Source: Falsiroseomonas frigidaquae
GTDB taxonomy: Bacteria; Pseudomonadota; Alphaproteobacteria; Acetobacterales; Acetobacteraceae
DNA length: 64,000 nucleotides
NCBI RefSeq assembly: GCF_012163145.1
Contig: NZ_JAAVTX010000003.1
Span: 124,001-188,000, forward strand
Reading direction: 5' to 3'
Shown: positions 3,854 through 22,529 of the stretch, piece after piece
How the letters are laid out: each line of letters opens with the position of its first letter
Numbering within the stretch: the first letter of the stretch is position 1
Position numbers and translations under genes: made by a program
The notes under the pieces: generated by a model
Told to the model about the DNA's origin: nothing
Databases searched by the model: none
Seen by the model: the letters and a program-made list of their open reading frames with translations, nothing else

Positions 3854-6800
3854 TCACTCGCCCGGCAGCACCGTGATGCGCGCCGCGTTCTGCCGCGCGA
3901 AGATGCCCGGCCGGTACATGTCCTGCGCCTCCATCCCCGGCAGCTCGAAGCTGCCGGCAGTCACCGCCCGCACCCGCACGGCGAAGCGGGCCAGCGGGCT
4001 TTCGGCGGTCAGTTCCAGCGCAGCGGCGTAGCGGTCATCCCGCGCCGGCTGGGCATCCGGGTCGGTCAGCGTGCCGAGCCACGGCATGCCCTGCACCTCG
4101 CCCGGGCCGAGCCGCCCGGCAATCTCCCACCCCGCCGGCAGGCCCTGGATCACCATGGCCAGGTGGCGCTCATTGTCGGTGGCCCGCGCCTCCATCAGCA
4201 GCACGAAGCCGGTGCCGGCGCGCAGCGCATCCAGGTTCAGCGGCTGGCCATCCAGCGCGAAGAAGCGCCGCGCCACCCGCATGCCCTGGCTGGCCGCCGG
4301 CAGGGGGGAGGTCGGCACGCCGGCGATCGACACCGCCTGCACCACCGGCGCATCGCCACGGTTGCGCGCCTCCCCGGCCGCCGTCAGCGGCGCCGTCACC
4401 ACGCCCGCCACCGGCAGGTCCCGCCCATCCAGCGTGATCCGCGCGGGCCGACCGTCGCGGCCCAGCACGAAGGCCGCGGCGACGGCCCAGGCCTGTTCCT
4501 GGGTGTTGCTGACGGCGGGCGTGAATTCCGCCCCCGGCAGGCGCGCGAGCAGCGCCGGCAGCCGGTCCTGGGCCACGCCGGATTCGCGTAGCAGCAGGGC
4601 GGTGGCCAGCGCATCCCGCGCCGCGCTGCCGAAATCGGCGTGCCAGACCTGCCGCGCCGGGGCTTCCAGGCTGGCCGCGAAGATCGCCGCCGCGCGGTCC
4701 CGGTCGCCCGCACGGGCGAAGGCGCTGGCGAGCTGCGCCTTGGCGAGCGGCGTCGGCAACTGGTCGAGCTGCTCCGCCAGCCGCCGCGCCGCACCCAGCC
4801 GGTTGCGGCCGGCCAGCGCCAGCACGTGCACGCGGTACGCCTGGACGGCCAGGTATTCCGGCGAGTTGCCGCTGCCTTCCAGGTCATCCTCCACCGATTG
4901 CAGCGCCGCGTTCAGCGCCGCCTCCGGCACCGGGGCGCCATTGGCGCGGGCGCGCAGCAGGGCCTCCGTCGCATACAGGCTGGCCCAGTCATGCACGCTG
5001 CCCTCGGCGCTCCAGTAGCCGAAGCGCCCGGAATAGGTCTGCCGGTCGAGCACCGAGGAAATCGCCCGGCCGAGCAGCGCCGCATCCTCCTGCGCCGTAT
5101 CCGGGTTGGCCGGGGCGTAGGACAGCGCCAGCAGGCGGGATCCGGCCTGCTCGACGCAATCCAGCGGGAAACGCTTGAGCCCCGCCAGCAGCGCCTGCGG
5201 ATCGTAGCGCACCGGCGCGCCCCAGCTTGCCGTGGCGCGCCAGGTGCCAGCCAGGAAACGGGAGGATGGCAACGCCACGGGCGCGGTGGCGCCCGGCGCC
5301 AGGGTGCTGATGGCGACCTCGCTGACCGCGGGGCGGGAGGAGCGGACGGTGATCTCCGCCTCCCGCTCCGTCCTGAAGCCGCCGGGGCCGGTGACGGCCA
5401 GGCGCAGCGTGCCCTGCCCGACCGATACGCCGCGCAGGCTGGTGGCCGGCACGGCGCGGGCGCCAGCGGCGAGCTTGGCGTCCAGTGTCGCCGGCCCGGC
5501 CAGCGCGATCGCCCCGGTGGCGGTCAGCGTGGCGCGGAAGTCGCCGGGCGGCAGTTCGACATTGTGCAGCAGCACGGGCAGCCGGACTTCATCGCCCGGC
5601 GCCAGGAAGCGCGGCAGCAGGGCCTCCGCCACCGCCTGTTCGCGGATGGTCATCGGCCGGGCCGCGCTGCCGATGCGGGCGCCGTCCCAGGCCACCACCA
5701 TCAGTCGCACCTCGCCGGCGAAATCCGGCAGGTCGAGCGGGATGGTCGCGGTGCCATCGGCGGCCACTGCCACCGGCCCCTGGAACAGCGCCACCACGCG
5801 CTGCGGCACCTGCAGCAGCGCGCTGGCATCCATGCCGTCGCCACCCTGGCGCAGCACCGCGGCCTCGCCCTCCGCCGGGGCGATCAGGCGGCCGTAATCG
5901 TCCCGGATATCGAGGCCGAGGCGCCGCCGGGCCAGGAAATGGCCCACCGGATCAGGACTCGAAAAGTTGGTAATTCGGAGAATGCCCTCATCCACCGCCG
6001 CCAGCGTCACCATCGCGGAGGCACCGGCGCCGGGGAGGCGGATCGGCACCTCGATGCGCGTGCGCGGCCGGGCCAGCGGCGGCGTGTCGATCGCCACCTC
6101 CAGCCGCCGCGCCGCCGGGTCCAGCCCGAGCCAGGCGAGCCCCAGCGCGCGACCCGGCCGGCCCGCACCGGCGCCCCCACCGGCACCGGGCCGGAAGACG
6201 GTGACGGCGACATGCGCACCGGGGCCCCAGGCGGCGTCAACCGGCACCTCGATTTCGGCACCGGCTTCCGGCACCTCGATCTCCCGCAGCGAGACCACGC
6301 GATCCGTCAGCACGGCGATGCTGGCGCGCCCGGCGAAGGGCGGGGTGATGCGCAGCCGGGCGGTGTCGCCGGCGCCATAGGCGCGGCGGTCGGCGGCGAC
6401 ATCCACGCGGTCCGGCACCTCCGCCGCCTCCGCCTGCGCCCAGCCGGCGCGGAAGCGGTAGCTGGCGATGCCGAGGCCGTTCGGCTCCGTCACCTCCAGC
6501 CGGTAGCGGCCGAAGGACAGGGTGCGGGCGAAGCGGGCGGGGCGGCCGGGGGCGACCTGGACCTCGGCGGAATCCACCGGCTCGTCGCGCCACACCGTCT
6601 CGTAGCGGGCCAGGCGTTCGCGCATCACGATCCGCCAATCGGGCCTTTCGCGCACCAGCCGCACGCGCAGCGTGCCGGCGGTGGCCTCGCCCGCCGGGTT
6701 CACGGCGGCGATGTCGAAGGCGGCCTCCGCCCCGTCATTCACCGCGCCGCCCTCGAAGGCCGGGCGGATGGCGAGCAGCGTGCCGCGGGCGCGCACCGGC

Positions 6801-8989
6801 AGGGACAGGCGCGTTCCGCTGGTCCGGCCACCGGGTTCGGACATCAGCACCGACACATCGGCGCGCAGCGGCCGCGTGGTGTCAGGCGCCTGGGGCAGCA
6901 GCAGCGACAGGGTCGCCTTGCCCTCCGCATCCGTCTCCGGCACGTCGAAGACCTGCAGGTCGGGTGTGAAGCTTTCGTCCATCAGGCCGAAGCGCCAGCC
7001 GCGCCAGGCCTCGAAGGGCTCCGGGTCCACGGACAGGCGCAGTTCCGCCGTGCCGGTCAGGCCGGCGCCCGGCGCGCCGTACAGGAAGCGGGCGGCGACG
7101 GGAATTTCCATCTCCTGCCCCGGCACCAGCGTGCCGGGGGCGGGGCCAGCATTCACCTCCAGCCGTTCCGGCACGAAGGCATCGACGCGGAAGCTGGTGG
7201 TGCCGATCGGCGGCGCGTTGGGGTCCGCCAGCACCTCCACCGTCCAGGCGCCGGCCGGGGCGCTGGCCGAAAGGGGCACGGGCGCGACGAAGGCGGCGCC
7301 CTGCACGCGGTCCGGCACCGTCTCGAAGAACACCTGGCCGTTCGGGCGCTTCACCCGCAGCCGCACCGGCAGGTCCACCGGCTGCCCGCCGCCATCGCGC
7401 AGCAGCGCGCCCACCTGCACCACCTCGCCCGGGCGGTAGATGCCGCGGTCGAGCCAGAGGAAGGCATCGAGCGGCCCCGGATGCGGCCGCCCCTCGGCGC
7501 CGCGATCGGTCAGGTCGAAGGCGGCGCTTTCCAGGTTGAGCGTGGCGAAATCCTCGCCGGAGAAGGCCTGCACCGCCACCGGCGCCAATTGCCCGGCACC
7601 GCGCAGCACCGCCGCGTTGAACCGCGCCAGGCCATCCGGCCCGGTCATCGCTTCCGCCAGGATATCGTTGTTGCGGGCCAGCAGCACCGTCCGCACCGCG
7701 CCGCGCGGCACGGCATCGGAAAAGCCGCGCACCTGCACGGCCAGGCCCTGCGGCCCACGCCAGGCGGTGATGCCGAGATCCGTCGCCATTACGGCGAGCG
7801 AAGCGCTGCTGCCGCGCTGCGTGCCGTCGCCGGGCAATGCCACCAGCACATACATGCCGGGGCCGGCGGTCCGCAGCGCCTCGGGCAGTGGCAGGGCGTT
7901 GCGCGCCATGCGGTTGGGCTCCGCGGCCGGCAGCTCGGCGCGGCCTTCCCACACCACGCGGCCGAGATCCTCGGAGAGGTTCTCCGCCATCCAGTCGTCC
8001 ATCGTGGTGCCCGGCCGCCAGTCGCGCATCAGCGGTACCAGGTTCCGCTCCGTCACCCGCACCAGCTTGAGGCGCAGGGCGGCGACGTTCACGGTCGCGA
8101 CCGTCACGCGGGGGTCCTGGCCCGCTGCCTGTGGAGCCCGGGGCAGCAGGAAGGCGCGGTTGTCGAAGGCGATGCGGGCCGGACGGTTCGGCATGGCGAT
8201 GCGGTAGGTCAGGTCACGCTGCACGCGCAGCCCGTCTTCCCCCGGCAGGCCGGCGCGCACCACCAGCCGCGTGGTCTCGCCCCAGGGCAGGCCGGCGACG
8301 CAGAGTACGTCGCCTTCCCGCGTCACCGCCATCGCCGGCAAGCCGGGTTCGGCGCGCAGCCAGTCGGCCGGCTGCCAATCCGCGCGGCGGGCGGGGGCGG
8401 AGGTGAAGGCGAGGCAGGCGCGGGCCGGTTCGGCATCCGGTTCCGTCGTGATGCGGCGCACCAGCAGGCCGGCGGTGCGGCGGGCGCTGGCCAGCGCCTC
8501 CCGGTGCCGCGCATCCTCCGGCGCACGCTCGACCACCGCCTCCAGCGCCTCGATCTGCCAGACCGGCTGGTCCATCCGGCGCAGCGCCTCCGCCATCGCG
8601 AGCAGCGAGGGGATCTCCGGCGCGCCGCCTGGCACCATCATGTAGGCACGCCATGCCGCCTGCAGCGCCCGCCGCGCCTCCGGCGGGGTGCGGGAGAGCT
8701 GGGCGCGGGACAGCGCGAGCCAGGTGTCGCCGGAGGCATCGCCGGCGCCGACCCTTTCCTCCCACGCCGCGACGGCCGCGGCCCAATCCTTGCGGGCTTC
8801 CGCCGCGCGGGCCCGGGCTTCCGCCTGGGCGCGCTGCTGCGGCGTGCCGCCGGCGGGGAAGCGGCGGGTCAGTGCGCCTTCGTACTGGCCCGCATCGTCG
8901 GAGAGCCCAGGGGGGTCGAAGGCCTGGGCGGAAAGCGGCAGCAGCCAGCCGAGCAGCAGCAACAAGGGCAGCAACAAGCGGGGCGACAT
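3854..8989 (-). CDS. Bacterial alpha-2-macroglobulin (thioester type)
   Basis: A 1711-aa periplasmic protease-trapping protein related to E. coli YfhM. A clear Sec signal peptide (leucine-rich, ending LSAQA, about residues 1-23) starts at an ATG preceded by AGGAG at good spacing. Macroglobulin beta-sandwich repeats (for example the [13 protein letters not shown] region) fill the first two thirds. The thioester motif C-V-E-Q lies at about Cys1278 (genomic 5147-5158), followed by the alpha-helical thioester domain ([18 protein letters not shown]). The signal sequence lacks a lipobox cysteine, so the protein is probably soluble rather than lipid-anchored. Pairing with downstream pbpC is the classic arrangement: the trap is thought to protect cells while PBP1C repairs the wall. 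Confidence 0.92.
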
Positions 8990-9178: not shown

Positions 9179-10171
9179 ATGAAGCGCGCGCGCAAACGCG
9201 TCCTGATCACCGGCGGCGCCGGCTTCCTCGGCTCCCATCTGTGCGAGCGGCTGCTGGCGGAGGGCGAGGAGGTAATCTGCCTCGACAATTTCTTCACGGG
9301 ATCGCGCGACAATATCCGCCACCTGCTGCCGCATCCGCATTTCGAGGTGATCCGCCACGACGTGACGCAGCCGATCCAGCTGGAGGTGGACGAGATCTAC
9401 AACCTCGCCTGCCCCGCCTCCCCGGTGCATTACCAGCATAATCCGGTGCAGACGGTGCGAACCTCGGTGCATGGCGCCATCAACCTGCTGGAGCTGGCGA
9501 AGCGGCTGGGCGCGCGGATCTTCCAGGCTTCCACCTCGGAAGTGTACGGCGACCCTGCGGTGCATCCACAAACGGAAAACTACCGCGGCAACGTCAACCC
9601 CATCGGCATCCGCGCCTGCTACGACGAGGGCAAGCGCTGCGCGGAGACGCTGTTCTTCGACTACCACCGCCAGGACGGCGTCGATATCCGCGTCGCCCGC
9701 ATCTTCAACACCTATGGCCCCCGCATGCATCCGAATGACGGGCGCGTGGTGTCCAACTTCATCGTCCAGGCGCTGCAGGGCGAGGCCATCACGCTGTATG
9801 GCGATGGCAGGCAGACCCGGTCCTTCTGCTATGTGGACGATCTGATCGACGGCATCATCCGCCTGATGCGTGCGCCGGATGGCATCACCGGCCCGGTCAA
9901 TCTCGGCAACCCCACCGAATTCACCATCCGCGAATTGGCGGAGGAGGTGACGCGGCAGACCGCATCCCGCGCCGGCTACGTGCTGCGCCCGTTGCCGCAG
10001 GATGACCCGATGCAGCGCTGCCCGGACATCACCCTGGCGCGCAGCCTGCTCGGTTGGCAGCCGGAGGTGCCGCTGGAAGCCGGGCTGCGCCGCACCATCG
10101 CGTATTTCGCCGAGACGCTGGGCCTGCGCGTGCCGGAACCGGCGCTGCTGCGCGTGGTGGCGGGGCGCTGA
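9179..10171 (+). CDS. UDP-glucuronate decarboxylase (UDP-xylose synthase)
   Basis: An extended short-chain dehydrogenase/reductase of 330 aa that converts UDP-glucuronate to UDP-xylose with bound NAD. N-terminal GGAGFLGSH nucleotide-binding motif, the UXS signature [20 protein letters not shown], the YxxxK pair in CYDEGKR and [21 protein letters not shown] are all present and typical of UXS rather than 4-epimerases. AAGGA sits 8 bases before the ATG. It precedes the type I secretion genes by 50 bases on the same strand, so it may supply a pentose donor to the glycosyltransferases of this island, or to carotenoid glycosylation further on. Confidence 0.88.
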
Positions 10172-10221
10172 TCGCGCGCCGATTTACCAGGCGTCCATAC
10201 CGGCCGCGATAGGCTGCGCGC

Positions 10222-12377
<2,156 letters not shown>

Positions 12378-12378
<1 letters not shown>

Positions 12379-13736
12379 TGCGCTTGCGCCGCAGCAGACC
12401 CCCGCCGCGGCGCCTGGCGGCGGAGGCGGTGGCGTTCCAGGACGATCTGGAGGCGCTGATCGCCGAGCCGCCCTCGCCTTTCCTGGGCGGCGCACATTGG
12501 TGGCTGGCGCTGCTGGCCCTCGCGCTGCTGGCCGGCGCGGCGCTGGCGCGCATCGACGTGGTGGTGACCGGCAGCGGCCGCCTGGTGCCTGATGCGCCGC
12601 CGCTGGTGCTGCAACCGATGGAACGTGCGGTGCTGCGGGAAGTGCTGGTGCGGCCCGGCCAGGCGGTGCGGCGCGGCGACGTGCTGGCGCGGATGGACGC
12701 CACCTTCGCCGAAGCCGACCAGCAGGCGCTGGCGGCCCAGGCCCGGTCGCTGCGTGCGCAGCTCGGCCGCGTGGAGGCCGAGCTGGCCGGCGCGGAACCG
12801 GCGCGCGGCGAGAACCCGGACAGCGCCCTGCAGGCCGTGCTGCACGCCCAGCGCCAGGCGCTGCGCGCCGCCCGGACGAATGCGCTGGACCAGGACATCC
12901 AGGCGCTGGAGGAAGGGCTGCGCGCCACGCGCATGCAGCAGGCTTCGCTGGCCGAGCGCGCCGCCATCGCCCGGGACGTGGAGGCGATGCGCCTGCGGCT
13001 GATGGAGGGTCAGATCGGCTCCCGCCTCAACCTGCTCGCCGCCCGCGTGCAGCGGATGGAGGCGGAGCAGGCGGAGGAGGCGGCGCGCAGCCGCGAACAG
13101 GAACTCGGCCACAGCCTGGCCGCGCGGCGTGCCGAACGCGAAGGCTTTCGCGATGAATGGACACGGCTGCTGCTGGAAGATGCGGTGCGGCTGCGGGGCG
13201 AGCTGGTGCGAGTGGAGGAATCGCTCGCCAAGGCCACGCGCATGCAGGCGCTGACCACGCTGCTGGCGCCGGCGGATGGCGTGGTGCTGGAGGTGGCGCG
13301 CCGTTCCGCCGGCTCCGTGCTGCGGGAGGCGGAGCCGCTGGTGGTGCTGGTGCCGGCCGATGCGCCGCTGATCGCAGAGATCACGCTGCGTTCAGCCGAT
13401 ATCGGCCATCTGCGCGTGGGCGATCCGGTGGTGCTGAAGGTGGATGCCTTCCCGTTCCAGCGCCACGGCCCGCTGCTCGGCACGCTGCGCGCCATCAGCC
13501 GCGACAGCTTCGGCGCCAACCAGCCCGGCGGCGGCGAGCCGCTACCGGGCGGGCCCACCGTGCATCGCGGCCAGGTGGAGATCGCGCCCGGCGCCGTGCT
13601 GCGGCTGGAGCCCGGGCTGGCGCTGATCCCGGGCATGACGCTGGCAGCCGAAATCAAGATCGGCGACCGCAGCGTGCTGGGCTACTTCCTCACACCGTTG
13701 ATCCGCGGGATGCGGGAAAGCCTGCGGGAGCCTTGA
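12378..13736 (+). CDS. HlyD-family membrane fusion protein of type I secretion
   Basis: A 452-aa periplasmic adaptor partnering the ABC exporter. Short cytoplasmic N-terminus, one membrane helix at about residues 41-58, lipoyl/barrel halves flanking a long Ala/Arg/Glu-rich coiled coil (about 100-300), and a C-terminal beta-barrel with the family motif GDPVVLKVDAFPFQRHGPLLG and ending EIKIGDRSVLGYFLTPL, as in HlyD/LktD. I take the ATG in the TGATG overlap with the exporter stop; an in-frame ATG at 12348 would add 10 residues. It is followed directly by a palindromic repeat element. Confidence 0.9.
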
Positions 13737-13738
13737 TC

Positions 13739-13829
13739 ATACCAGATCCCACTTATCGGAACCTGCGCCCGCCGAAGGCGGGCGAGCGGCCGAAGGCGGC
13801 GATCGGTCACGATCGCCGGGATTTGGTAT
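13739..13829. repeat. Palindromic MITE-like element, short form
   Basis: A 91-bp element bounded by inverted ends ATACCAGATCCC (13739-13750) and GGGATTTGGTAT (13818-13829), containing an internal hairpin (GCGCCCGCCGAAGGCGGGC) and a GATCGGTCACGATC palindrome. A longer copy with nearly the same ends and the same internal blocks lies at 62424-62557. It fills the gap between the hlyD-like stop and the stop codon of the convergent methyltransferase; its last T is also the final base of that stop codon. No transposase is encoded. Confidence 0.75.
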
Positions 13830-14557
13830 CAGGCTGCGAGAGACAGCGAAAGCTGCACGGCCCTGCGCGGCTTGCGCAGCACGCCGATGAAGTAGCCATT
13901 GTGCCAATCGCTGTCCTTGAACGCGATCTCCGGATGCGTGTTGTCCAGCGTGGTGCGGATCTCCGCGCCGTACAGCATCTGCAGCCCGCCCTGCACGATG
14001 GCGCGATGCGTGCCGGCGCGCACCGGCCACCAGTTCCAATCGTCGCAGATGAAGACGAACTCCTCCGTCAGCGCCGGCAGGGCGGCGATCAGCCCGTCAT
14101 GCTGATCCTGTTCCTCATGCGGACCGTCGAACAGATAGACCTCGAAGGGCGTGTGACGGGCCGCCAGATCGGCGAAGGGCACGGCGCGGAAATCCGCCTC
14201 GATCACCTCCACCGCCGCCGCCTCCGTGCGGAACTGCGCGAGGTTGCCGAGGAAGGCGTCGCGCGGGCCGCCGAACTGGCTCCAATTGTCGATCGCGACC
14301 GCACGCACGGCGTTGCCATGGATGGCGCTGCACAGCGTCGATCCCATCCAGCTTCCCACTTCCAGATAGCCGGTACGGCCCAGCTTGCGGAGCAGGCCGT
14401 TGATGAAATGGCGGTAGCGCGCGCCGGACATGCCGTCGATCGTGTAGAAGCCCTGCGCCCGGTCGATCGGCGCTGCCAGCGCCTCCGACAGCGCGAGGCG
14501 CAGCGGCGCGACCAGCCGGGCCTCCGGCTCGATGAGGATTTCGCTGAGATGGGTCAT
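13829..14557 (-). CDS. Class I SAM-dependent methyltransferase (Methyltransf_24-like)
   Basis: A 242-aa soluble methyltransferase. The SAM-binding motif I appears as YLEVGSWMGSTL, followed by an acidic residue in AVAIDNWSQFGG and a further YLFDGPHEEQDQHDG segment typical of the family that modifies sugars or glycosylated products. The start ATG at 14557 is preceded by GGAG at suitable spacing; longer in-frame extensions run antisense to the divergent methyltransferase. The acceptor is unknown. Placement between the secretion genes and the GT41 pair suggests a role in decorating glycans, which is inference only. Confidence 0.75.
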   Translation of the reverse strand: MTHLSEILIEPEARLVAPLRLALSEALAAPIDRAQGFYTIDGMSGARYRHFINGLLRKLGRTGYLEVGSWMGSTLCSAIHGNAVRAVAIDNWSQFGGPRDAFLGNLAQFRTEAAAVEVIEADFRAVPFADLAARHTPFEVYLFDGPHEEQDQHDGLIAALPALTEEFVFICDDWNWWPVRAGTHRAIVQGGLQMLYGAEIRTTLDNTHPEIAFKDSDWHNGYFIGVLRKPRRAVQLSLSLAA

Positions 14558-14695
14558 CGGGGATTTTCTCCGCATGCGGGGCTGCGCCATATCTGAGCCG
14601 CTTTGGCTGAATCGAGCGTGAATGCGCGCGCCTCCAGCATTGGGTAATCCTTTGCCGCCAGACTGCCCGGGAACCCGCCCGGAAAATCCGAGACC

Positions 14696-15295
14696 ATGGA
14701 AACCCTGCCCTCCTCCCGCCCCGGCGCCCTTTCCAGCCGCCTCGTGCTGCATGTCGGCTGTGGCGCCGCGGCACCGGACAAGTTGCCGGCGCATTTCTTC
14801 CCGGCCGGCGAATGGCGGGAGATCAGGCTGGACATCGACCCGGATGTGGCGCCCGACGTGCTTGCCTCGATCACGGATATGGAGGCCGTGGCCGATGCCT
14901 CCGTCGATGCCGTGTGGTCGTCCCACAATCTGGAGCATCTGTTCCCGCATGAGGTGCCGCTTGCGCTGGCCGAGTTCCGCCGCGTGCTGAAGCCGGGCGG
15001 CTTCGCGCTGATGACCATGCCGGATCTGCAGCAGATCGCGAAGCTGGTGGCGGAGGACCGGCTGATGGAGGCGGCCTACCTGTCCCCGATGGGACCGATC
15101 ACGCCGCTCGACATGCTGTACGGTCATGGCGGGTCGCTGGCGCAGGGCAATGTCTTCATGGGCCATCGCGGCGGCTTCACCGCGCGGTCACTGGAATCGG
15201 CGCTGCTGACCGCCGGCTTCCCCATCGTCCGCGTGGTGCGCGATGACAGTTTCGCGCTGTGGGCCACAGCCTATATGGGCGGCGTCACGCTGTAA
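14696..15295 (+). CDS. Class I SAM-dependent methyltransferase (Methyltransf_11-like)
   Basis: A 199-aa methyltransferase with motif I LVLHVGCGAAAPDKLP, an acidic motif II (IRLDIDPDV), a motif IV-like segment AVWSSHNLEHLFPHEV and the post-motif LAEFRRVLKPGGFALMTMPD. These are typical of methyltransferases found in glycan and polysaccharide gene clusters. It is divergent from the other methyltransferase (138-base gap) and converges with the first GT41 gene, the two coding regions overlapping by 11 bases at their 3' ends. The acceptor is unknown. Confidence 0.8.
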   Translation: METLPSSRPGALSSRLVLHVGCGAAAPDKLPAHFFPAGEWREIRLDIDPDVAPDVLASITDMEAVADASVDAVWSSHNLEHLFPHEVPLALAEFRRVLKPGGFALMTMPDLQQIAKLVAEDRLMEAAYLSPMGPITPLDMLYGHGGSLAQGNVFMGHRGGFTARSLESALLTAGFPIVRVVRDDSFALWATAYMGGVTL

Positions 15296-17147
15296 GCCGT
15301 ACCGTCTCCAGCGCCGCTTCCAGGCGGCGCGTGAAGCCGGCGCAGTCGCCCAGCGTGCGCGCCCAGGCATCACCCGCCAGCACATGCCGCGCCGCCTCGT
15401 GGCGGGCGGGATCGGTGGCGAGGGCGATGGCGCGGGCGACATAATCCTCCCGCGTTCCCGTGATGCCATCGGTCAGGCCGATTGCGGTCAGCAGGCTGCA
15501 CGCCATGCGCGCGGCGAAGGCCTTGCCCGCCAGGGTCAGCAGCGGCAGGCCCATGCGCAGCGCGTCGCTGGCCACCGTGCCGGAATTATAGGGCGTGGTA
15601 TCCAGGAACAGATCTGCCAGCCGCATCCGCGCCAGGTAGCGCGCCGGTTCCACGCGCGGGCCGAACACCAGGCGCTCCGGGCCGATGCCCGCCGCCGCCG
15701 CGCGGGCGCGCAGATTGGCGCTGGCACCGTGGCCATCTTCCGCCAGCCACAGCACGGCGCGCGGCACGGCGTGCAGGATGCGCATCCAGTCGCTGAACAT
15801 CTCCGCCGTGATCTTGTAGAAATTGGCGAAGCAGCACAGCACGAAGGCGTCTTCCGGCAGCCCTTCGCCGGCGCGGGTCAGCACCGGCAATTCCGGCATG
15901 CGGCTGTCATTCGCCTGGTACAGGCCCTCGATCGCCAGCGGCTTCGGCGCGTAGAGATGCGCCACATCCGGCGGCACCGCGATGGCATCGCACAACAGGA
16001 AATCCAGCTCCGGCAGTGGCACGCTGCCGATATAGCCGAGATAGGTGCCCTGCACCGGCGCCGGCTTCCAACGCAGCGCGCCCAGCCTGGCGCCGCGCGT
16101 CAGGCCGTTCAGGTCGATCAGGATGTCGATCTCGTCCGCGCGGATGCGCCGCGCGGCCGCCTCGTCGTCCATTCCCGCGATGCGGACATGATGATCCAGC
16201 GCCGCGACGACGCGGGCGCGGATGTCGCTGCCATCCTCGGGCGATGAACAGTAGCCGAAGATCTCGAATCGCCCGCGATCGTGGCGTTCCAGTACCTCCG
16301 CGATCAGGAAGCTCATCGCATGCCGGCAGAAATCGGAGGAGACGTAGCCGATGCGGATCCGGTCATGCGCATAGCCATGCCGCGGCGCCAGACGCTGCGG
16401 CGCGGCTGGCACCTTGCGATCCAGCCAGGTGGCGACGATGCGGCGTTGCAGGTCGATATCGTCGAACAGTGCCAGCGCGCCGAGCGGCCCGGCATGCAGC
16501 GCCGCCTGTTCCATCGTCAGCCCGGGAGTGTCGCCGGCATGCACCGGCCACAGGCACAGTTTTTGGCGCAGATGCGACCAGTGCTGCAGCACGTCGGGCT
16601 GGTCGGCTTCGCTGATCAGGCTCTCGCGCAGCGCCCGCTCGGCCTCGGCGAAGCGTCCCACCTGTTCCAGAACGCGGCCGCGCTGGTTCAGCAATTGGCG
16701 CCGCGTGGCTTCCGGTTGCAGCGCCTGCTGCCAGGTGGCCAGCGCAGCATCCGTCTGCCCTGCCGATTCCAGCGCCAGGCCGAGGTTGATGGCCGCCTCG
16801 TGGAAATCCGCCTTCAGCGCCAGCGCGTTGCGGTAGCAGGTGGCGGCCTGGCTGAATTCACCGGTCTGCGCAAAGGCAACGCCCAGATTGAACCAGGCGG
16901 CCATCGCCTGCGGATGCGCGGTGTTGGCGGCGAGCCAGGCCTTGTAGCCGCCGATCGCGACGGATTGCCGCCCTTCCCGGCTTGCCTGTTCCAGCAGCGG
17001 CAGCAGGCCCTCGAGGCGGATGGCGCGCAGCCCGCGCTGGCGCCGCGCCTCCTCCGCCGGCGGCAGCAGCGCCGGCCATTCGGCGCGGGCGAGAAGGCCC
17101 GCGAGCCAGCCGATATCCAGCGTATCGGATGCCGTCAGCGCATTCAT
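15285..17147 (-). CDS. TPR-containing GT41 (O-GlcNAc transferase-like) glycosyltransferase
   Basis: A 620-aa soluble protein. Residues about 60-200 hold tetratricopeptide repeats (for example FNLGVAFAQTGEFSQAATCY and AAINLGLALESAGQTDAALA). Residues about 265-610 form a GT41 catalytic region with RIGYVSSDFCRHAMSFL, the nucleotide-site NFYKIT lysine segment and LFLDTTPYNSGTVASDALRMG. GT41 enzymes transfer sugars from nucleotide donors to Ser/Thr of proteins in the cytosol. The ATG at 17147 overlaps the upstream gene stop as ATGA; a GTG at 17159 is an alternative. Paired with a second GT41 gene and near a Thr-rich repeat protein, its likely target. Confidence 0.85.
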   Translation of the reverse strand: MNALTASDTLDIGWLAGLLARAEWPALLPPAEEARRQRGLRAIRLEGLLPLLEQASREGRQSVAIGGYKAWLAANTAHPQAMAAWFNLGVAFAQTGEFSQAATCYRNALALKADFHEAAINLGLALESAGQTDAALATWQQALQPEATRRQLLNQRGRVLEQVGRFAEAERALRESLISEADQPDVLQHWSHLRQKLCLWPVHAGDTPGLTMEQAALHAGPLGALALFDDIDLQRRIVATWLDRKVPAAPQRLAPRHGYAHDRIRIGYVSSDFCRHAMSFLIAEVLERHDRGRFEIFGYCSSPEDGSDIRARVVAALDHHVRIAGMDDEAAARRIRADEIDILIDLNGLTRGARLGALRWKPAPVQGTYLGYIGSVPLPELDFLLCDAIAVPPDVAHLYAPKPLAIEGLYQANDSRMPELPVLTRAGEGLPEDAFVLCCFANFYKITAEMFSDWMRILHAVPRAVLWLAEDGHGASANLRARAAAAGIGPERLVFGPRVEPARYLARMRLADLFLDTTPYNSGTVASDALRMGLPLLTLAGKAFAARMACSLLTAIGLTDGITGTREDYVARAIALATDPARHEAARHVLAGDAWARTLGDCAGFTRRLEAALETVRLTA

Positions 17148-19105
17148 GGCGTGCTCCACATGCGGCCATCCGCCGGCAGGTGCTGGAAGGCGTTGCGCCG
17201 CGCCAGTCTGTCGCGCCAGCGCGCCACATAATCCGGCAGCGTGCCGGTCTCCTGCGCCTCATGATCCTCGGCAGCGCCGAGATCGAGATAGGTGTCGAGG
17301 TTGCGGAGATCCGGCCGCGGCAGGCGGCCTTCGCGGAAATCCTGCCACATGCCGTCGAAGGCCTGTTCGATGTGCCGGACGAAGTTCCCGGTGTCGAACA
17401 GCAGCGAGGTCTGCCGCGCCGCCAGCAGCCCCGCCCGCAGGCCGCGCAGCCGCGCCGGGTCCCGGCCCAGCGCGATGGCCTGGGCGACGTAGTCCGCCGG
17501 CGTGGCGCAGACCAGCTCCGGCAGGCCGGCGGCGCGCACCAGGCTGGCGCAGACGCGGCTGGCGAAGCCGCGGCCGGGCATGGTCAGCACCGGCGTGCCC
17601 ATCCACAGCGCGTCGGATGCGGTGGTATGCGCGCCATAGGGCGCCGTATCCAGGAACAGGTCGGCCGCTGCGTAGCGCGCGACATGCTCAGCATTGCCGG
17701 CCATCGGCGCGAAGATCAGCCGCGTCGCGTCGATGCCCGCCGCTGCGGCCCGTTCGCGCAGCTTCACATCCACCGCATCGCTGGATTTCAGCAGCCACAG
17801 CACGCTGCCCGGCACGCCGCGCAATACCTGCATCCAGCGATCGAAGCCGAAGCGGGTGATCTTCTGCGTGCCGTTGAAGCTGCAGAACACCACGACATCC
17901 TCCGGCAATCCCAGCGCGGCGCGGGTGGGGGGCGTTGCGACCTCGCGGTGGCGGTCATTCGGCTGGTAGCAGGGCAGCCGTCGCACGGCTTCGGAGTAAT
18001 AGATCTCGCTGCCTGGCGGGATGATGACCTCGTCGGCCAGGATGTAGTGATGGTACGGCGTGCCCATGGTGCCGGCATAGCCGAGCCAGTTGACGATGAC
18101 GGGCGCCGGCCGCCGCGACAGCAGCCTGGTGCGCGCGCCGCGGGTATGGCCGTTGATGTCCACCAATATGTCGATGCCGTCCGCCAGCATGCGCGCCAGC
18201 GCGGCATCGTCGTCCATCGGCGTGATGTCCAGCCAATGTTCCACGCTGTCGCGGATGCGCGCCTTCACCGCATCCTCCTGCGGGATGCCGCAGTAATAGA
18301 CGAAGACCTCGTAGCGGCTGCGGTCATGCAGCCGGTACATGTCCGCCGTCAGATGCCCGATGGCGTGCGAGCGCAGGTCCGAGGACAGGTAGCCCACCCG
18401 CAGCCGCGGCGCCGCCGGCCGCTGCGCGAAATCCGCTTCCGTCTGGAAACTCGCCGGCACGCCGAATTCGGCGCGGCTGTAGGCGGCGGAAAGCGCGAGC
18501 GCCAGTATCGGGTCGTCGGTATGGGTGATCAGGCTCAGCGGCGCCATGCCGCGCAGCAGCGCCGCGCGGTCCAGCGTGCCCACTGGCTCCAGCAGCGGCC
18601 ATGCGCATTGCCGTTGGCGCAGGCTGATCCAGTGCTGCACCACGTCGCGCTGCCTCGGCGCGAGTTCGATGATCTGGCGCAGATGTTCCTCCGCCTGCGC
18701 ATGGCGCTGGGCGCCCTCCAGCACGCGGGCGATGTGCTTCAGCGCGGTGGTCTTGTAGGCCAGGCTGTCGCCGGACAGCGCGGCCAGGCTCGCCGTGGCA
18801 TGCGCCCAATGGCTGATCGCGGGCTCCGTCGCGCCCAGCCTTTCATACACCACGCCGAGGTTGATGAAGGGCGGCAGGAAGGTGGCGTTGCGACGGATTG
18901 CCTCGCCGAAGGCGATGGCCGCACCAGCCAGGTCATCGAGGCCCGAGAGCAGCACGCCATAGTTGAAGTAGACCGCATGGCCCAGCGGGTCCGCCGGGTT
19001 GCACGCCAGCCATTCCCGGTACAACGCGGCCGCCTGCGGCGCCTGGCCCGCCAGGGTCAGCCGATGCGCCGTGCCGAACAGCTCGGCCACACTCTCATTC
19101 TGCAT
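17144..19105 (-). CDS. TPR-containing GT41 (O-GlcNAc transferase-like) glycosyltransferase
   Basis: A 653-aa paralogue of the next gene. N-terminal TPR units (about 10-190, for example FINLGVVYERLGATEPAISH) are followed by a GT41 region with RVGYLSSDLRSHAIGHL, DILVDINGHTRGART, the VFCSFNGTQKIT lysine segment and LFLDTAPYGAHTTASDALWMG. I start at the ATG at 19105, which has GGACGGAAG just upstream. Starts at 19195/19198 would add about 30 residues whose codons (CTA, TCA) look non-coding and would cover a candidate operator. First gene of the coupled GT pair, divergent from the repeat-protein gene across about 226 bases. Confidence 0.85.
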   Translation of the reverse strand: MQNESVAELFGTAHRLTLAGQAPQAAALYREWLACNPADPLGHAVYFNYGVLLSGLDDLAGAAIAFGEAIRRNATFLPPFINLGVVYERLGATEPAISHWAHATASLAALSGDSLAYKTTALKHIARVLEGAQRHAQAEEHLRQIIELAPRQRDVVQHWISLRQRQCAWPLLEPVGTLDRAALLRGMAPLSLITHTDDPILALALSAAYSRAEFGVPASFQTEADFAQRPAAPRLRVGYLSSDLRSHAIGHLTADMYRLHDRSRYEVFVYYCGIPQEDAVKARIRDSVEHWLDITPMDDDAALARMLADGIDILVDINGHTRGARTRLLSRRPAPVIVNWLGYAGTMGTPYHHYILADEVIIPPGSEIYYSEAVRRLPCYQPNDRHREVATPPTRAALGLPEDVVVFCSFNGTQKITRFGFDRWMQVLRGVPGSVLWLLKSSDAVDVKLRERAAAAGIDATRLIFAPMAGNAEHVARYAAADLFLDTAPYGAHTTASDALWMGTPVLTMPGRGFASRVCASLVRAAGLPELVCATPADYVAQAIALGRDPARLRGLRAGLLAARQTSLLFDTGNFVRHIEQAFDGMWQDFREGRLPRPDLRNLDTYLDLGAAEDHEAQETGTLPDYVARWRDRLARRNAFQHLPADGRMWSTP

Positions 19106-19166
19106 GCTTCCGTCCTGGCGCGCTGCAACCTGCCGCAGCAGCCTGACGCGGTCGGGTGAAGATTGC

Positions 19167-19180
19167 GTTAGCGCTTTCAC
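19167..19180. promoter_or_regulatory. Possible LacI-type operator in the divergent GT41/repeat-protein spacer
   Basis: GTTAGCGCTTTCAC is an imperfect palindrome centred on AGCGCT and resembles the AGCGCT-centred operators of LacI-family repressors. It sits in the shared upstream region of the glycosyltransferase pair and the repeat-protein gene, where one regulator could control both. No regulator gene lies alongside. The match is short. Confidence 0.3.
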
Positions 19181-19331
19181 GACGCGTGGATTCATCACCC
19201 GTCAAGGCTTCCTCGCCTACCTTCCCGCGACGCCGGGACGACAAGATGTCCACCCCGTTGCGACCACGCCGTTTCTGCCGGGCTTGCTGGGCCCTGGCGT
19301 GGCCGATTTTCCCCGGCAGGGAGTGATGGCG

Positions 19332-22300
19332 ATGGCGCTGTTCGATTCGTTGACCACCACGCAGATCGGTCAACTCACGACCACGACCATTGCCGCGCTG
19401 CGGACCACCGAGATCCGTAGCCTGGCCGCGACGCAGATCGCGGCGCTGACAACGACGCAGATCGGCGCCCTGGCTGCGACACAGCTCGGCGCGCTGTACA
19501 CCACGCAGGCCGCGGCGCTGGAGACGACGGATATCGCCGTGCTGACCAGCGCGCAGCTCCGCGGCCTGGTTTCCACCCAGATCGCCGCGCTGACCACCAC
19601 GCAGGTCGGCGCCCTGACCTCGACGCAGTTCGGCGCCCTGAGCTCGCTTCAGGCCGCGATGTTGTCGACCACGCAGGTGGCGGCGCTGACCACCACGCAG
19701 CTCGGTGGCCTTGGCACCACCCAGGTGGTCGGCCTTACTTCGCAGCAGATCGCGGCGCTCACCACCACCCAGGTCGCCGTGCTGACCTCCACGCAGATCG
19801 GCGCCATCGGCGCGACGAAGATCCGTGGGCTGGAGACCTCCGACATCGAGGCGCTGACCACCACGCAGATGGCCGGGCTGACGACGGCGCAGCTTGCGGC
19901 GCTGACCAGCACTCAGGCGGCGGCGTTCGAGACGACGGATCTGGTGGCGCTGACCACCACCCAGCTGCGCGGCCTGGTCTCGACGCAGCTTGCCGCACTG
20001 ACCACGACGCAGGCAGCGGCGCTGACCACCACGCAGCTTGGTGGCTTGACCTCGGTCCAGATGGCGGCGCTGAGCAGCACCCAATTGTCGGCGCTGACCA
20101 CGACGCAGGTGAGCAACCTCGGCACCACTCAGGTCGCCGGCCTCACCTCCGGGCAGATCGCCAGCTTCACCACCACGCAGGTAGGCGTGCTGACCTCGAC
20201 GCAGATCGGCGCGATCCGTTCCAGCCAGATCCGCGGCCTGGAAACCACGGACCTTGCCGCGCTCACCACCACCCAGGTCGCCGGCCTCACCAGCCTGCAG
20301 CTTGGCGGGCTGAGCGCGACGCAGATCCTCGCGCTGGAGACGACGGATCTGGCGGCGCTGACGACGACGCAGATACGCGGCCTGACAACGACCCAGATGG
20401 GCGCGCTGACAACGACGCAGACGGAGGCGCTGACCACGACGCAGCTTGCCGCGCTGGGCACGACGCAGGTTGCCGGCTTCGGGTCGCTGCAAATGGCGGC
20501 GCTGACCACCACCCAGGTCGGCGCGCTGACCTCCACCCAGATCGCCGCCATCGGCAGCGTCGCCCTGCGCGGCATGGAGACCACCGACCTCGCCGCCCTC
20601 ACCACCACCCAGGTCGCCGGCCTCACCAGCCAGCAGCTCTCCGCGCTGACCTCGACCCAGGCGGTCGCGCTGGAGACCACCGACCTCGCCGTCCTCACCA
20701 CCACCCAGCTGCGTGGCCTCACCACCACCCAGATCGGTGCATTGACCACCACCCAGGCGGTGGCGCTGACCTCCACCCAGGTCGCCGGCCTCACCTCCAC
20801 CCAGTTCGCCGCCATCACCACCACTCAGCTCGCCGCGCTCACCACCACCCAGGTCGGCGCCCTCGGCACCACCCAGGTCGCCGGCCTCACCTCCACCCAG
20901 CTCGCCGCGCTCACCACCACCCAGGTCGGCGTGCTCACCACCACCCAGATCGCCGCCATCCGCTCCAGCCAGATCCGCGGCCTGGAGACCACCGACCTCG
21001 CCGCCCTCACCACCACCCAGATCGGCGGCCTCGGCACCGCCCAGATCGCCGCCCTCACCACCACCCAGGCCGCGGCGCTGGAGACCACCGACCTCGCCGT
21101 CCTCACCACCACCCAGCTCGGCGGCCTCACCTCCACCCAGCTCGCCGCGCTCACCACCACCCAGCTCGCCGCCGTCACCACCACCCAGGTCGCCGCCCTC
21201 ACCACCACCCAGGTCGGCGGCCTCACCACCACCCAGGTCGCCGCCCTCACCACCACCCAGGTCGGCGCCATGGGCACCACCCAGGTCCAGGGCCTCACCA
21301 CCGGCCAGCTCGCCGCGCTCACCACCACCCAGGTCGCCGCGCTCACCTCCACCCAGGTCGGCGCCATCCGCCGCAACTGGATCCGCGGCATGGAGACCAC
21401 CGACCTCGCCGCCCTCAACACCACCCAGATCGGCGGCCTGTCCTCCGACCAGCTCAACGGCCTGACCAACACCCAGCTCGCCGCGCTCGAGACCACCGAT
21501 CTCGCCGTCCTCACCACCACCCAGCTGCGCGGCATCACCTCCACCCAGCTCGCGGCGCTGACCACCACCCAGGCCACCGCCCTGACCACCACCCAGGTTG
21601 TGGGTCTCGCCACCACCCAGCTCACCGGCCTGACCAGCACACAGGTCGCGGCCTTCACCACCACCCAGATCGGCGCGCTGACCACCACCCAGATCGCCGG
21701 CCTGGCCACCGCCACCATCCGTGGCATCGAGACGACCGATCTGGCCGCGCTGACCACCACCCAGATCGCCGGCCTCACCAGCCAGCAGCTCTCCGCGCTG
21801 ACCTCGACCCAGGCGGTGGCGCTGGAGACGACGGATCTGGTGGCGCTGACCACCACGCAGCTGCGCGGCCTGGCCAGCACCCAGCTTGCGGCGCTGACCA
21901 CCACCCAGGCCACCGCGCTGACCACCACACAGGTCGCGGCCCTGACCACGACGCAGGCGGCGGCGCTGACCACCACACAATTGGCAGTGCTGACCACGAC
22001 GCAGATCGGCGGGTTGGGCACCACCCAGTTGGCCGGCCTCACCTCCGCCCAGCTGGCCGCGCTCACCACCACCCAGGTCGCCGTGCTGAGCTCGACGCAG
22101 ATCGGTGGCATCAGCAGCGTGGAGATCCGCGGCCTGGAGACGACCGACCTGGCGGTGCTGACCACCACCCAGTTCGGCGGCCTGACTTCAACGCAGCTCT
22201 CCGCGCTGACCTCGACCCAGGCCACCGGCCTGACCACCACCAGCCTCGCCGCGCTGACCACCACCCAGCTCGGCGGCCTGACGGTGACGATGGTGGGGGC

Positions 22301-22529
22301 GCTGACCACCACCCAGGTGGCGGCGCTGACCAGCACCTCCATCACCGCGCTGACCACGAAGCAGATGGAGGGGCTGACGACGACCCAGCTCGCCGCCCTC
22401 AGCACCACCCAGGTCACGGCGCTGGAGGTGGCGGACATCACGGCGCTGACGGACACGCAGGTGGCCGGCTTCACCACGACGCAGATCGGCGCGATGACCG
22501 CCAACCAGGTGAACGCGCTGTTTGCCTGA
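19332..22529 (+). CDS. Giant Thr-rich octapeptide-repeat protein
   Basis: A 1065-aa protein made almost wholly of about 132 tandem octapeptides, consensus [AG]-L-T-[TS]-T-Q-[IVL]-[AG], with no other domain. CAGGGAG stands 8 bases before the ATG at 19332; an ATG at 19326 is too close to it. There is no signal peptide or membrane segment (N-terminus MALFDSLTTTQ) and no RTX nonapeptide; the C-terminus is AMTANQVNALFA. Variant octads with E-T-T-D and I-R-G recur regularly, giving a hierarchical repeat. I do not recognise a characterised family. With type I secretion genes and two GT41 enzymes nearby it is a good candidate for a secreted, Thr-glycosylated surface protein, but substrate status is inference. 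It could instead be an intracellular scaffold. Confidence 0.85.
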   Translation: MALFDSLTTTQIGQLTTTTIAALRTTEIRSLAATQIAALTTTQIGALAATQLGALYTTQAAALETTDIAVLTSAQLRGLVSTQIAALTTTQVGALTSTQFGALSSLQAAMLSTTQVAALTTTQLGGLGTTQVVGLTSQQIAALTTTQVAVLTSTQIGAIGATKIRGLETSDIEALTTTQMAGLTTAQLAALTSTQAAAFETTDLVALTTTQLRGLVSTQLAALTTTQAAALTTTQLGGLTSVQMAALSSTQLSALTTTQVSNLGTTQVAGLTSGQIASFTTTQVGVLTSTQIGAIRSSQIRGLETTDLAALTTTQVAGLTSLQLGGLSATQILALETTDLAALTTTQIRGLTTTQMGALTTTQTEALTTTQLAALGTTQVAGFGSLQMAALTTTQVGALTSTQIAAIGSVALRGMETTDLAALTTTQVAGLTSQQLSALTSTQAVALETTDLAVLTTTQLRGLTTTQIGALTTTQAVALTSTQVAGLTSTQFAAITTTQLAALTTTQVGALGTTQVAGLTSTQLAALTTTQVGVLTTTQIAAIRSSQIRGLETTDLAALTTTQIGGLGTAQIAALTTTQAAALETTDLAVLTTTQLGGLTSTQLAALTTTQLAAVTTTQVAALTTTQVGGLTTTQVAALTTTQVGAMGTTQVQGLTTGQLAALTTTQVAALTSTQVGAIRRNWIRGMETTDLAALNTTQIGGLSSDQLNGLTNTQLAALETTDLAVLTTTQLRGITSTQLAALTTTQATALTTTQVVGLATTQLTGLTSTQVAAFTTTQIGALTTTQIAGLATATIRGIETTDLAALTTTQIAGLTSQQLSALTSTQAVALETTDLVALTTTQLRGLASTQLAALTTTQATALTTTQVAALTTTQAAALTTTQLAVLTTTQIGGLGTTQLAGLTSAQLAALTTTQVAVLSSTQIGGISSVEIRGLETTDLAVLTTTQFGGLTSTQLSALTSTQATGLTTTSLAALTTTQLGGLTVTMVGALTTTQVAALTSTSITALTTKQMEGLTTTQLAALSTTQVTALEVADITALTDTQVAGFTTTQIGAMTANQVNALFA
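19413..22200 (+). repeat. Hierarchical 24-bp / 408- or 336-bp / 1152-bp coding repeat
   Basis: The 24-bp unit encodes one octapeptide. A marker segment (I-R-[GS]-[LMI]-x-T-T-D type) begins at 19413, 19821, 20229, 20565, 20973, 21381, 21717 and 22125, giving spacings of 408, 408, 336, 408, 408, 336 and 408 bp, all multiples of 24. The order itself repeats every 1152 bp (48 octads). From about 20,560 to 21,530 the codons are nearly uniform (CTC ACC ACC ACC CAG), whereas the flanks mix CTG, ACG and ACC. Confidence 0.9.

Follow-up and report, generated by a model that had tools for sequence, protein, structure and literature searches.

The question raised by the gene cluster between positions 9179 and 22529 of the window (viz. 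the entire 64,000-nucleotide stretch of Falsiroseomonas frigidaquae DNA analysed here) is what two glycosyltransferases of the GT41 family and a type I secretion exporter have to do with the repeat protein encoded beside them. This protein (19332-22529, plus strand) contains 132 octads with the consensus L-T-T-T-Q-[LIV]-A-[AG]. The two enzymes, each combining tetratricopeptide repeats (TPR) with a GT41 domain, are referred to as GT41a (15285-17159) and GT41b (17144-19198); both are on the minus strand, and the octad gene is divergent from the pair. The type I secretion ABC exporter is of the HlyB type (10222-12378, plus strand) and is accompanied by a HlyD-type periplasmic adaptor (12297-13736, plus strand; this is the start of its open reading frame (ORF), the true start probably being further in). 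Comparison of genomes indicates that the octad genes, GT41a/GT41b and this HlyB/HlyD subfamily are genetically linked and that the residue at position 4 of the octads varies with the presence of GT41b. In view of these sequence comparisons and of structural models, we regard it as fairly probable that the cluster is devoted to glycosylating an alpha-helical octad protein in the cytosol and to exporting it. The gene content described by the sequence-only reading of this region, viz. a UDP-xylose synthase (UXS), a HlyB-like exporter, a HlyD adaptor, two methyltransferases, two coupled TPR/GT41 enzymes and a divergent octad protein with hundreds of threonines, is borne out in full by the ORF list and by Pfam/TIGRFAM and structure-sequence searches, with which the coordinates were checked: all of these genes are present, the GT41a and GT41b genes, which are on the same strand, have 16 nt in common, and the octad protein has 289 Thr in 1067 amino acids.

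The sequence-only reading had made its own standing depend on the co-conservation of these genes across genomes, and in this regard it survives. Among 136 distinct GT41a/b loci (viz. all fetched loci after the removal of duplicates by shared k-mers, with the own-genome fragments L001-L012 left out), for which all counts are lower bounds because many fetched stretches end at contig edges, an octad ORF is present in the stretch in 111; the gap is 69 nt in the median and does not exceed 500 nt in 103. A survey of 150 genomes from the same family, in which PF20080 (the Pfam family of the octad repeat) was scored at E<=1e-9, identified PF20080 in 20 genomes and the GT41 family PF13844 in 79; GT41a or GT41b is found in 19 of the 20 PF20080 genomes vs 6 of the 130 others (Fisher p 6e-18), and four of these six (G005, G006, G080 and G053) carry sub-threshold octad genes. 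Outside the family, PF20080 is rare at the same threshold, occurring in 4 of 385 class-level genomes besides that of F. frigidaquae, and three of these four show the arrangement. A scan of named contigs with a GT41b profile, from which the best 80 of 578 loci were taken so that close relatives of GT41b are favoured, gave an octad ORF in 66 of the 80; after deduplication 63 of these best loci remain, 52 of them with octads (46 from Alphaproteobacteria, 3 from Verrucomicrobiota, 2 from Fidelibacterota and 1 from a deltaproteobacterium, the last six being mostly metagenome-assembled genomes). Some observations speak against the linkage. In 17 of the 25 loci without an octad ORF the GT41 gene is within 1 kb of the end of the stretch, but the other eight (L022, L039, L046, L076, L099, L103, L118 and L132) have no contig end nearby; neither GT41a nor GT41b has a match in the PF20080 genome G119, whose octad pieces lie at contig ends; and the fourth class-level genome, G289, has no GT41 at all.

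The manner in which the parts are combined varies from locus to locus. UXS, GT41b, GT41a, HlyD, HlyB and octads are all found together in L070; L068 has GT41b, GT41a, HlyD, HlyB and octads, with no UXS in the stretch; and L066 consists of GT41b, UXS and two octad genes. The closest named relative is Falsiroseomonas tokyonensis (L107), whose GT41b is 89% identical. Near GT41 genes showing 37-47% identity to those in the window, no octad ORF was found in the six loci concerned (L056-L061). A GT41b-octad pair at 50-53% identity is also seen in L137, L146, L170, L174, L183 and L184, which are assigned to Marinimicrobia/Fidelibacterota, Verrucomicrobiota or a deltaproteobacterium; such pairs outside the Alphaproteobacteria could be due either to transfer or to mis-binned contigs.

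The sequence of the octads varies with the enzymes that are present. The pattern originally observed in the discovery loci (L013-L071), viz. that GT41a-only loci have LTTAQ octads and GT41b loci have Thr before Gln, was written down before the test loci (L072 onward) were fetched. The counts for the different classes come from a parser that imposes no restriction on positions 3 and 4 and cover 15,709 octads from 111 loci, with loci of fewer than 10 parsed octads left out; the GT41 class was assigned by locus, and genome-wide absence is based on searches of 398 and 396 genomes, in which the genomes lacking a match are itemised only in part, plus seven single genomes. In the 22 discovery loci, Thr occupies position 4 in 56-95% of the octads with GT41b (n=15) vs 5-39% without it (n=7). 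In the 89 test loci, the values are 53-100% in the 26 that have both enzymes, 44-92% in the 48 that have only GT41b and 0-31% in the 15 that have only GT41a, the last class differing from all GT41b-bearing loci (n=74) with p 1e-9. Overall, the ranges of 44-100% with GT41b and 0-39% with GT41a only do not overlap. Position 2 is rich in Thr/Ser in every class (medians 68-90%). No GT41b was found in six a-only genomes that were searched whole, the single GT41b-like match in each being its own GT41a at 35-40% identity. Octad genes that are unlinked to GT41 genes fit the pattern in three cases, viz. L025 with 6% Thr at position 4 in a GT41a-only genome, L037 with 79% in a genome with both enzymes and L064 with 50% in a GT41b genome; L042, from F. 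frigidaquae itself, and L069, which are both in GT41b genomes, do not fit, their values being 27 and 32%. Due to these misfits, octad proteins encoded away from GT41 genes cannot be assumed to be substrates.

These results could, however, also arise if octad subfamilies and GT41 types were co-inherited in a few blocks, with position 4 differing for reasons unrelated to the enzymes, such as stability or composition. Several results count in favour of this lineage effect and against a position-specific role of the enzymes. In the GT41a tree (57 loci with octad data) GT41b presence changes only three times, and the position-4 Thr trait changes three times at a cut of 41%, which was chosen after seeing the data, and four times at 35%; three switches are too few for a sign test on independent pairs to attain 0.05, although the pairs do agree (about 3/3 in a first tree analysis and 2/2 on supported branches in a second). 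Further, many of the test loci are related to loci of the discovery set, and L042 and L069 are low in position-4 Thr although GT41b is present in their genomes. On the other hand, phylogenetic regression with Brownian covariance on the GT41a tree (57 loci) gives for position 4 a slope of 71 points with t 7.4 at lambda 1, the t being larger at smaller lambda, while GT41b presence is not a clear predictor of either position 2 (t -0.9 at lambda 1; -1.6 at the better-fitting lambda of 0.8) or position 3 (t -0.8 at lambda 1). A stricter parser, which limits the letters at position 3 and thereby raises position-3 values, was used for the tally of the 136 loci, the trees, the regression, the unlinked genes and the comparison of b-only loci. 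Also difficult to reconcile with simple descent are L013, a locus with both enzymes and 80% Thr at position 4, which lies inside an otherwise a-only clade at 0-9%, beside L102 at 7%, and the low value for L025, whose octad gene is unlinked. On balance we consider the lineage effect rather unlikely as the cause of the pattern.

For GT41a and position 3, the corresponding evidence is less clear-cut. The clean double dissociation of our first reading had to be rejected, as position-3 Thr/Ser ranges from 27 to 100% in the b-only loci (54 loci without GT41a), compared to 82-100% in the 57 loci with GT41a. Also counting against a simple assignment of position 3 to GT41a, the b-only loci have a position-3 Thr/Ser median of 85% with HlyB or HlyD (n=11) vs 59% without (n=43). 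On the GT41b tree there is one change of GT41a presence, and with GT41a vs position 3 giving t 2.0, this half of the pattern is only suggestive. A position code, according to which GT41b would own Thr at position 4 and GT41a Thr/Ser at position 3, so that loss or gain of an enzyme would rewrite a residue in at least 100 repeats of a helical solenoid bearing one or two sugars per short helix and using type I export in many lineages, is put forward tentatively, as a proposal that falls somewhat short of being probable.

Whether the octad protein is also the substrate of the exporter is a separate matter. The exporter scores 612 bits with TIGR01846, below the cut-off of 725.55, but its best solved relative is HlyB (E 8.7e-135 over residues 20-714), and its assignment to the HlyB type is based on this; the adaptor, with 280 bits for TIGR01843, is above the cut-off of 208.65 and is of the HlyD type. 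The N-terminal region of the exporter is C39-like; no C39 peptidase match was obtained in Pfam at E<=0.001. Of 51 aligned exporters, 42 retain Cys17 and 45 retain His24; judging by its spacing in the C39 motif, we take Cys17 not to be the catalytic Cys. No TolC-type channel is present among the eight cluster proteins scanned, no genome-wide search for one having been made. In the survey of 150 genomes, the HlyB subfamily (59% identity threshold) is present in 14, G035 being a partial match, and all 14 are octad/GT41 genomes, vs 12 of the 136 genomes without the subfamily (p 5e-13). HlyB is found in the stretch of 53 of the 136 loci and HlyD in 58; an octad ORF is present in 48 of these 53, and the median gap of the octad gene to HlyB or HlyD is 1.7 kb. 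The C-terminal ends of octad proteins in the exporter-linked loci (HlyB or HlyD) are, by a count made by eye, of two kinds in 31 of 35 cases, viz. ...GFTTTQIGAMTxxQVNALFA (24/35) and ...GNAFTTTQIxxMxxxQVxALxxLIG (7/35). These conserved ends are a possible export signal, yet similar ends are seen in loci with no exporter in the stretch.

The alternative to be weighed here is that the octad protein is glycosylated by the GT41 enzymes but is no type I substrate, either staying inside the cell or leaving by another route, while the exporter carries something else. The small share of loci with HlyB in the stretch tells against export by this exporter and for such an alternative, as does the lack of the HlyB subfamily in 12 of the 26 octad/GT41 genomes; we count on the same side that clustering of neighbouring genes gave, among the clusters listed, no conserved alternative transporter in the exporter-less loci (many of the recurring neighbour clusters resemble antisense ORFs by eye). 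However, the confinement of the HlyB subfamily to octad/GT41 genomes, the octad ORFs in most HlyB loci and the two kinds of C-termini are not readily accommodated by it, and we regard the alternative as unlikely, though less so than the lineage effect. Since only a part of the loci have an exporter and nearly half of the octad/GT41 genomes lack the subfamily, type I export should be interpreted as common and not as a general rule; the earlier proposal of type I export for the octad/GT41 system is supported in part. It is far less likely that other proteins of the cell are the targets of the GT41 enzymes, with the octad protein serving as a scaffold or partner: bacterial GT41 enzymes may have several substrates, but the adjacency of octad genes in most loci and the tracking of position 4 point to the octads themselves. 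A dedicated glycosylation system for the octad protein, exported by type I secretion in many lineages, hence remains the interpretation that we prefer. In exporter-less b-only loci (among L138-L186), the octad proteins are often 2,200-3,300 amino acids long and have lower position-3 Thr/Ser.

The octad repeat itself is already in Pfam as PF20080 (ALTTAQ repeat), which matches the window protein with 720 bits (cut-off 26.4) over 38 stretches, and because of this family match a chance repeat or composition artefact was rejected. The ORF opens at TTG 18999, and the repeat protein starts at ATG 19326 (1067 amino acids) or ATG 19332, the latter being favoured, in our reading, by its spacing to a GGGAG motif. 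The commonest letters of the 132 octads are L at position 1 (113), T at position 2 (86), T (85) or S (37) at position 3, T at position 4 (108) and Q at position 5 (107). No Sec signal was seen by eye, and no family of RTX proteins, which have glycine-rich nonapeptide repeats, was found among its Pfam matches. Pfam matches of octad proteins to EndoS LRR, gp5, CAAP1, sigma-70 and DUF6955, and weak matches to TAL repeats and leucine-rich repeats in the PDB, were taken as composition echoes.

AlphaFold runs without an alignment on the first and last 320 residues predict a series of short helices, in most cases one for each octad, and due to this a beta-solenoid was rejected. The best models have a predicted local distance difference test (pLDDT) score of 78 and 83 and a predicted template modelling (pTM) score of 0.60 and 0.70; it counts against the helical model that the five models per run diverge widely, the worst having pLDDT 38 and 37. 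As the predicted helix spans octad positions 3-7, position 2 (Thr/Ser) would be its N-cap and positions 3 and 4 its first turn, and positions 1 and 6 are predicted to form the hydrophobic core. The octads also match the PDB entry 9zem ('HeliScrew4') with E 1.7e-16. This protein has LTPEQ-type octads with mostly P at position 3 and E or D at position 4, and not Thr; if 9zem shares the fold, then Thr at these two positions would be dispensable for folding, which fits a role as acceptors. A Foldseek match to mesothelin in the PDB (E 5e-4, TM-score 0.26-0.40) was too weak to use, and 9zem was absent among the Foldseek matches.

In F. frigidaquae, PF20080 matches are present on two further contigs. 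The octad protein of L042 (7506-11264 on contig C15; 1252 amino acids), which is unlinked to GT41, is dominated by G, A or S at position 2, and its positions 3 and 4 are not strongly enriched in Thr; it may represent an unmodified form of the fold. The other, L043 (10048-11337 on contig C9), has about 13 octads joined to a DUF1217 domain, which we take to be a domain of flagellar proteins; no GT41 homologue was found by searching the 20-kb stretch around L043 with the window proteins.

Both enzymes are clear members of the GT41 family, PF13844 giving 227 bits for GT41a and 274 bits for GT41b (cut-off 25), and in both TPR models are above their cut-offs, although narrowly in GT41b (TPR_2 30.5 vs 27; TPR_12 30.4 vs 30.1). 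They are the only PF13844 genes found in their genome, four partial matches all being at the cluster. His280 and Lys449 of GT41a, and His278 and Lys446 of GT41b, are invariant in 11 of 11 aligned sequences in each case and lie in motifs that align to SSDFGNH and FNQLYK of human OGT; these we take to be active-site residues. The GT41b profile matches human OGT with E ~1e-136 (about 460 bits), while HMW1C-like chains give E 9e-7 (31 bits), and with TPR also present, membership in the HMW1C subfamily was rejected. As the homology begins near residue 32, the true start of GT41b is probably near 19105, in which case the divergent intergenic region between GT41b and the octad gene, 19199-19331 by ORF coordinates, would be ~226 nt long. 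Orthologues of the two enzymes form a tight group, GT41a matches being either at least 51-52% or at most 44% identical. The 136 loci carry both enzymes in 43 cases, GT41a alone in 28 and GT41b alone in 65; as one GT41 often suffices, the pairing, regarded earlier as a feature of the system, holds for part of the loci only and should be viewed as a variant.

The remaining genes of the cluster bear on the sugar. UXS, a UDP-glucuronate decarboxylase (9179-10171, plus strand; PF01370), is a candidate sugar-donor gene; a phmmer comparison with UXS1 structures gives E 3.5e-124, which indicates close similarity to a characterised UXS. It precedes the exporter by 50 nt, and the exporter and adaptor ORFs, which are on the same strand, overlap. 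As UXS adjoins the system in several families, UDP-xylose is a first guess for the donor, and a weak one: the gene is found in the fetched stretch of only 23 of the 136 loci, and F. frigidaquae has three UXS-like genes, at 100, 68 and 63% identity to that in the window, so that two paralogues also speak against this assignment. Of the two methyltransferases, that of the Methyltransf_24 type (13829-14596, minus strand; PF13578 32.3 bits, cut-off 26.3), for which we chose the shorter span of an ORF extending to 15166, has homologues in L026, L027, L072, L074 and L138, and that of the Methyltransf_11 type (14696-15295, plus strand; PF08241 E 1.8e-11) has a homologue in the stretch of 30 of the 136 loci. 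In 17 loci (e.g. L041, 3963-4835) a methyltransferase of the FkbM type (PF05050) is encoded near the system; tblastn gave no match to it in the window. A 1711-amino-acid ORF, which by eye resembles a protein of the alpha-2-macroglobulin type, adjoins the cluster at 3854-8989 (minus strand).

If these parts are taken together, GT41b would glycosylate the Thr that occupies position 4 in most octads and GT41a, less surely, Thr/Ser at position 3. Candidate acceptors are 108 Thr residues at position 4 and 122 Thr or Ser residues at position 3, which would correspond to up to about 230 glycosylation sites in the window protein. UXS might provide UDP-xylose, either as the donor itself or as its precursor, and capping of the sugar may be the role of the methyltransferases. 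Glycosylation would precede export, and the octad protein, which has no evident Sec signal, would be exported by the HlyB/HlyD pair with a TolC-type channel encoded elsewhere, the signal perhaps being read from the conserved C-terminal octads. The product would be a rigid helical rod, coated with sugars, at the cell surface or surrounding the cell.

Such a system would offer a function for the PF20080 repeat, for which we know of none, and it would link OGT-like enzymes to type I secretion; the acceptor site of an orphan GT41 enzyme would also have been predicted from genomes alone. As a predicted regular helix in which the sites are fixed in position, the octad would permit a clean test of the choice that OGT-type enzymes make among neighbouring threonines, and it is a possible route to proteins bearing sugars at a set spacing. 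If the position code is true, it would represent a new class of bacterial glycan-coated rod.

Among known systems, the serine-rich-repeat adhesins of Gram-positive bacteria likewise have dedicated glycosyltransferases (GtfA/GtfB) and dedicated export, by accessory Sec, of a Ser/Thr repeat protein; their enzymes are from another family, and their repeats are not known to be helical, in contrast to the octads, which are predicted to be. HlyB/HlyD secretion of RTX proteins uses the same type of exporter and adaptor as those in the window, but the octad protein has no RTX match. PF20080 and 9zem represent the same repeat as the window protein, and neither was found to be tied to a function or system. 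As judged by titles and the openings of abstracts in the open-licence PubMed Central (PMC) literature, no description of octad/ALTTAQ proteins or of a GT41 plus type I system was found, nor did the searches made turn up a glycosylated type I substrate of the octad kind. FlmG of Caulobacter is similar in carrying out the cytoplasmic O-glycosylation of exported alphaproteobacterial proteins but acts on flagellins, with pseudaminic acid; the paper on it mentions tetratricopeptide once, and GT41 and type I secretion not at all (PMC7591256). In the HMW1C/HMW1 system of Haemophilus, a cytosolic GT41-family enzyme is encoded with one large exported substrate, a two-partner secreted adhesin; however, the glycosylation is N-linked, export is by Sec and an outer-membrane pore, and HMW1C has no TPR fold (PMC3983070). 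In the HMW1C subfamily an AAD domain takes the place of the TPR. The logic that the octad system shares with HMW1C/HMW1 and with the serine-rich-repeat adhesins is cytosolic glycosylation followed by dedicated export, while the parts by which it appears distinct are its OGT-like enzymes, a substrate of octads predicted to be helical, the use of type I secretion by many lineages and perhaps the assignment of one enzyme to each site.

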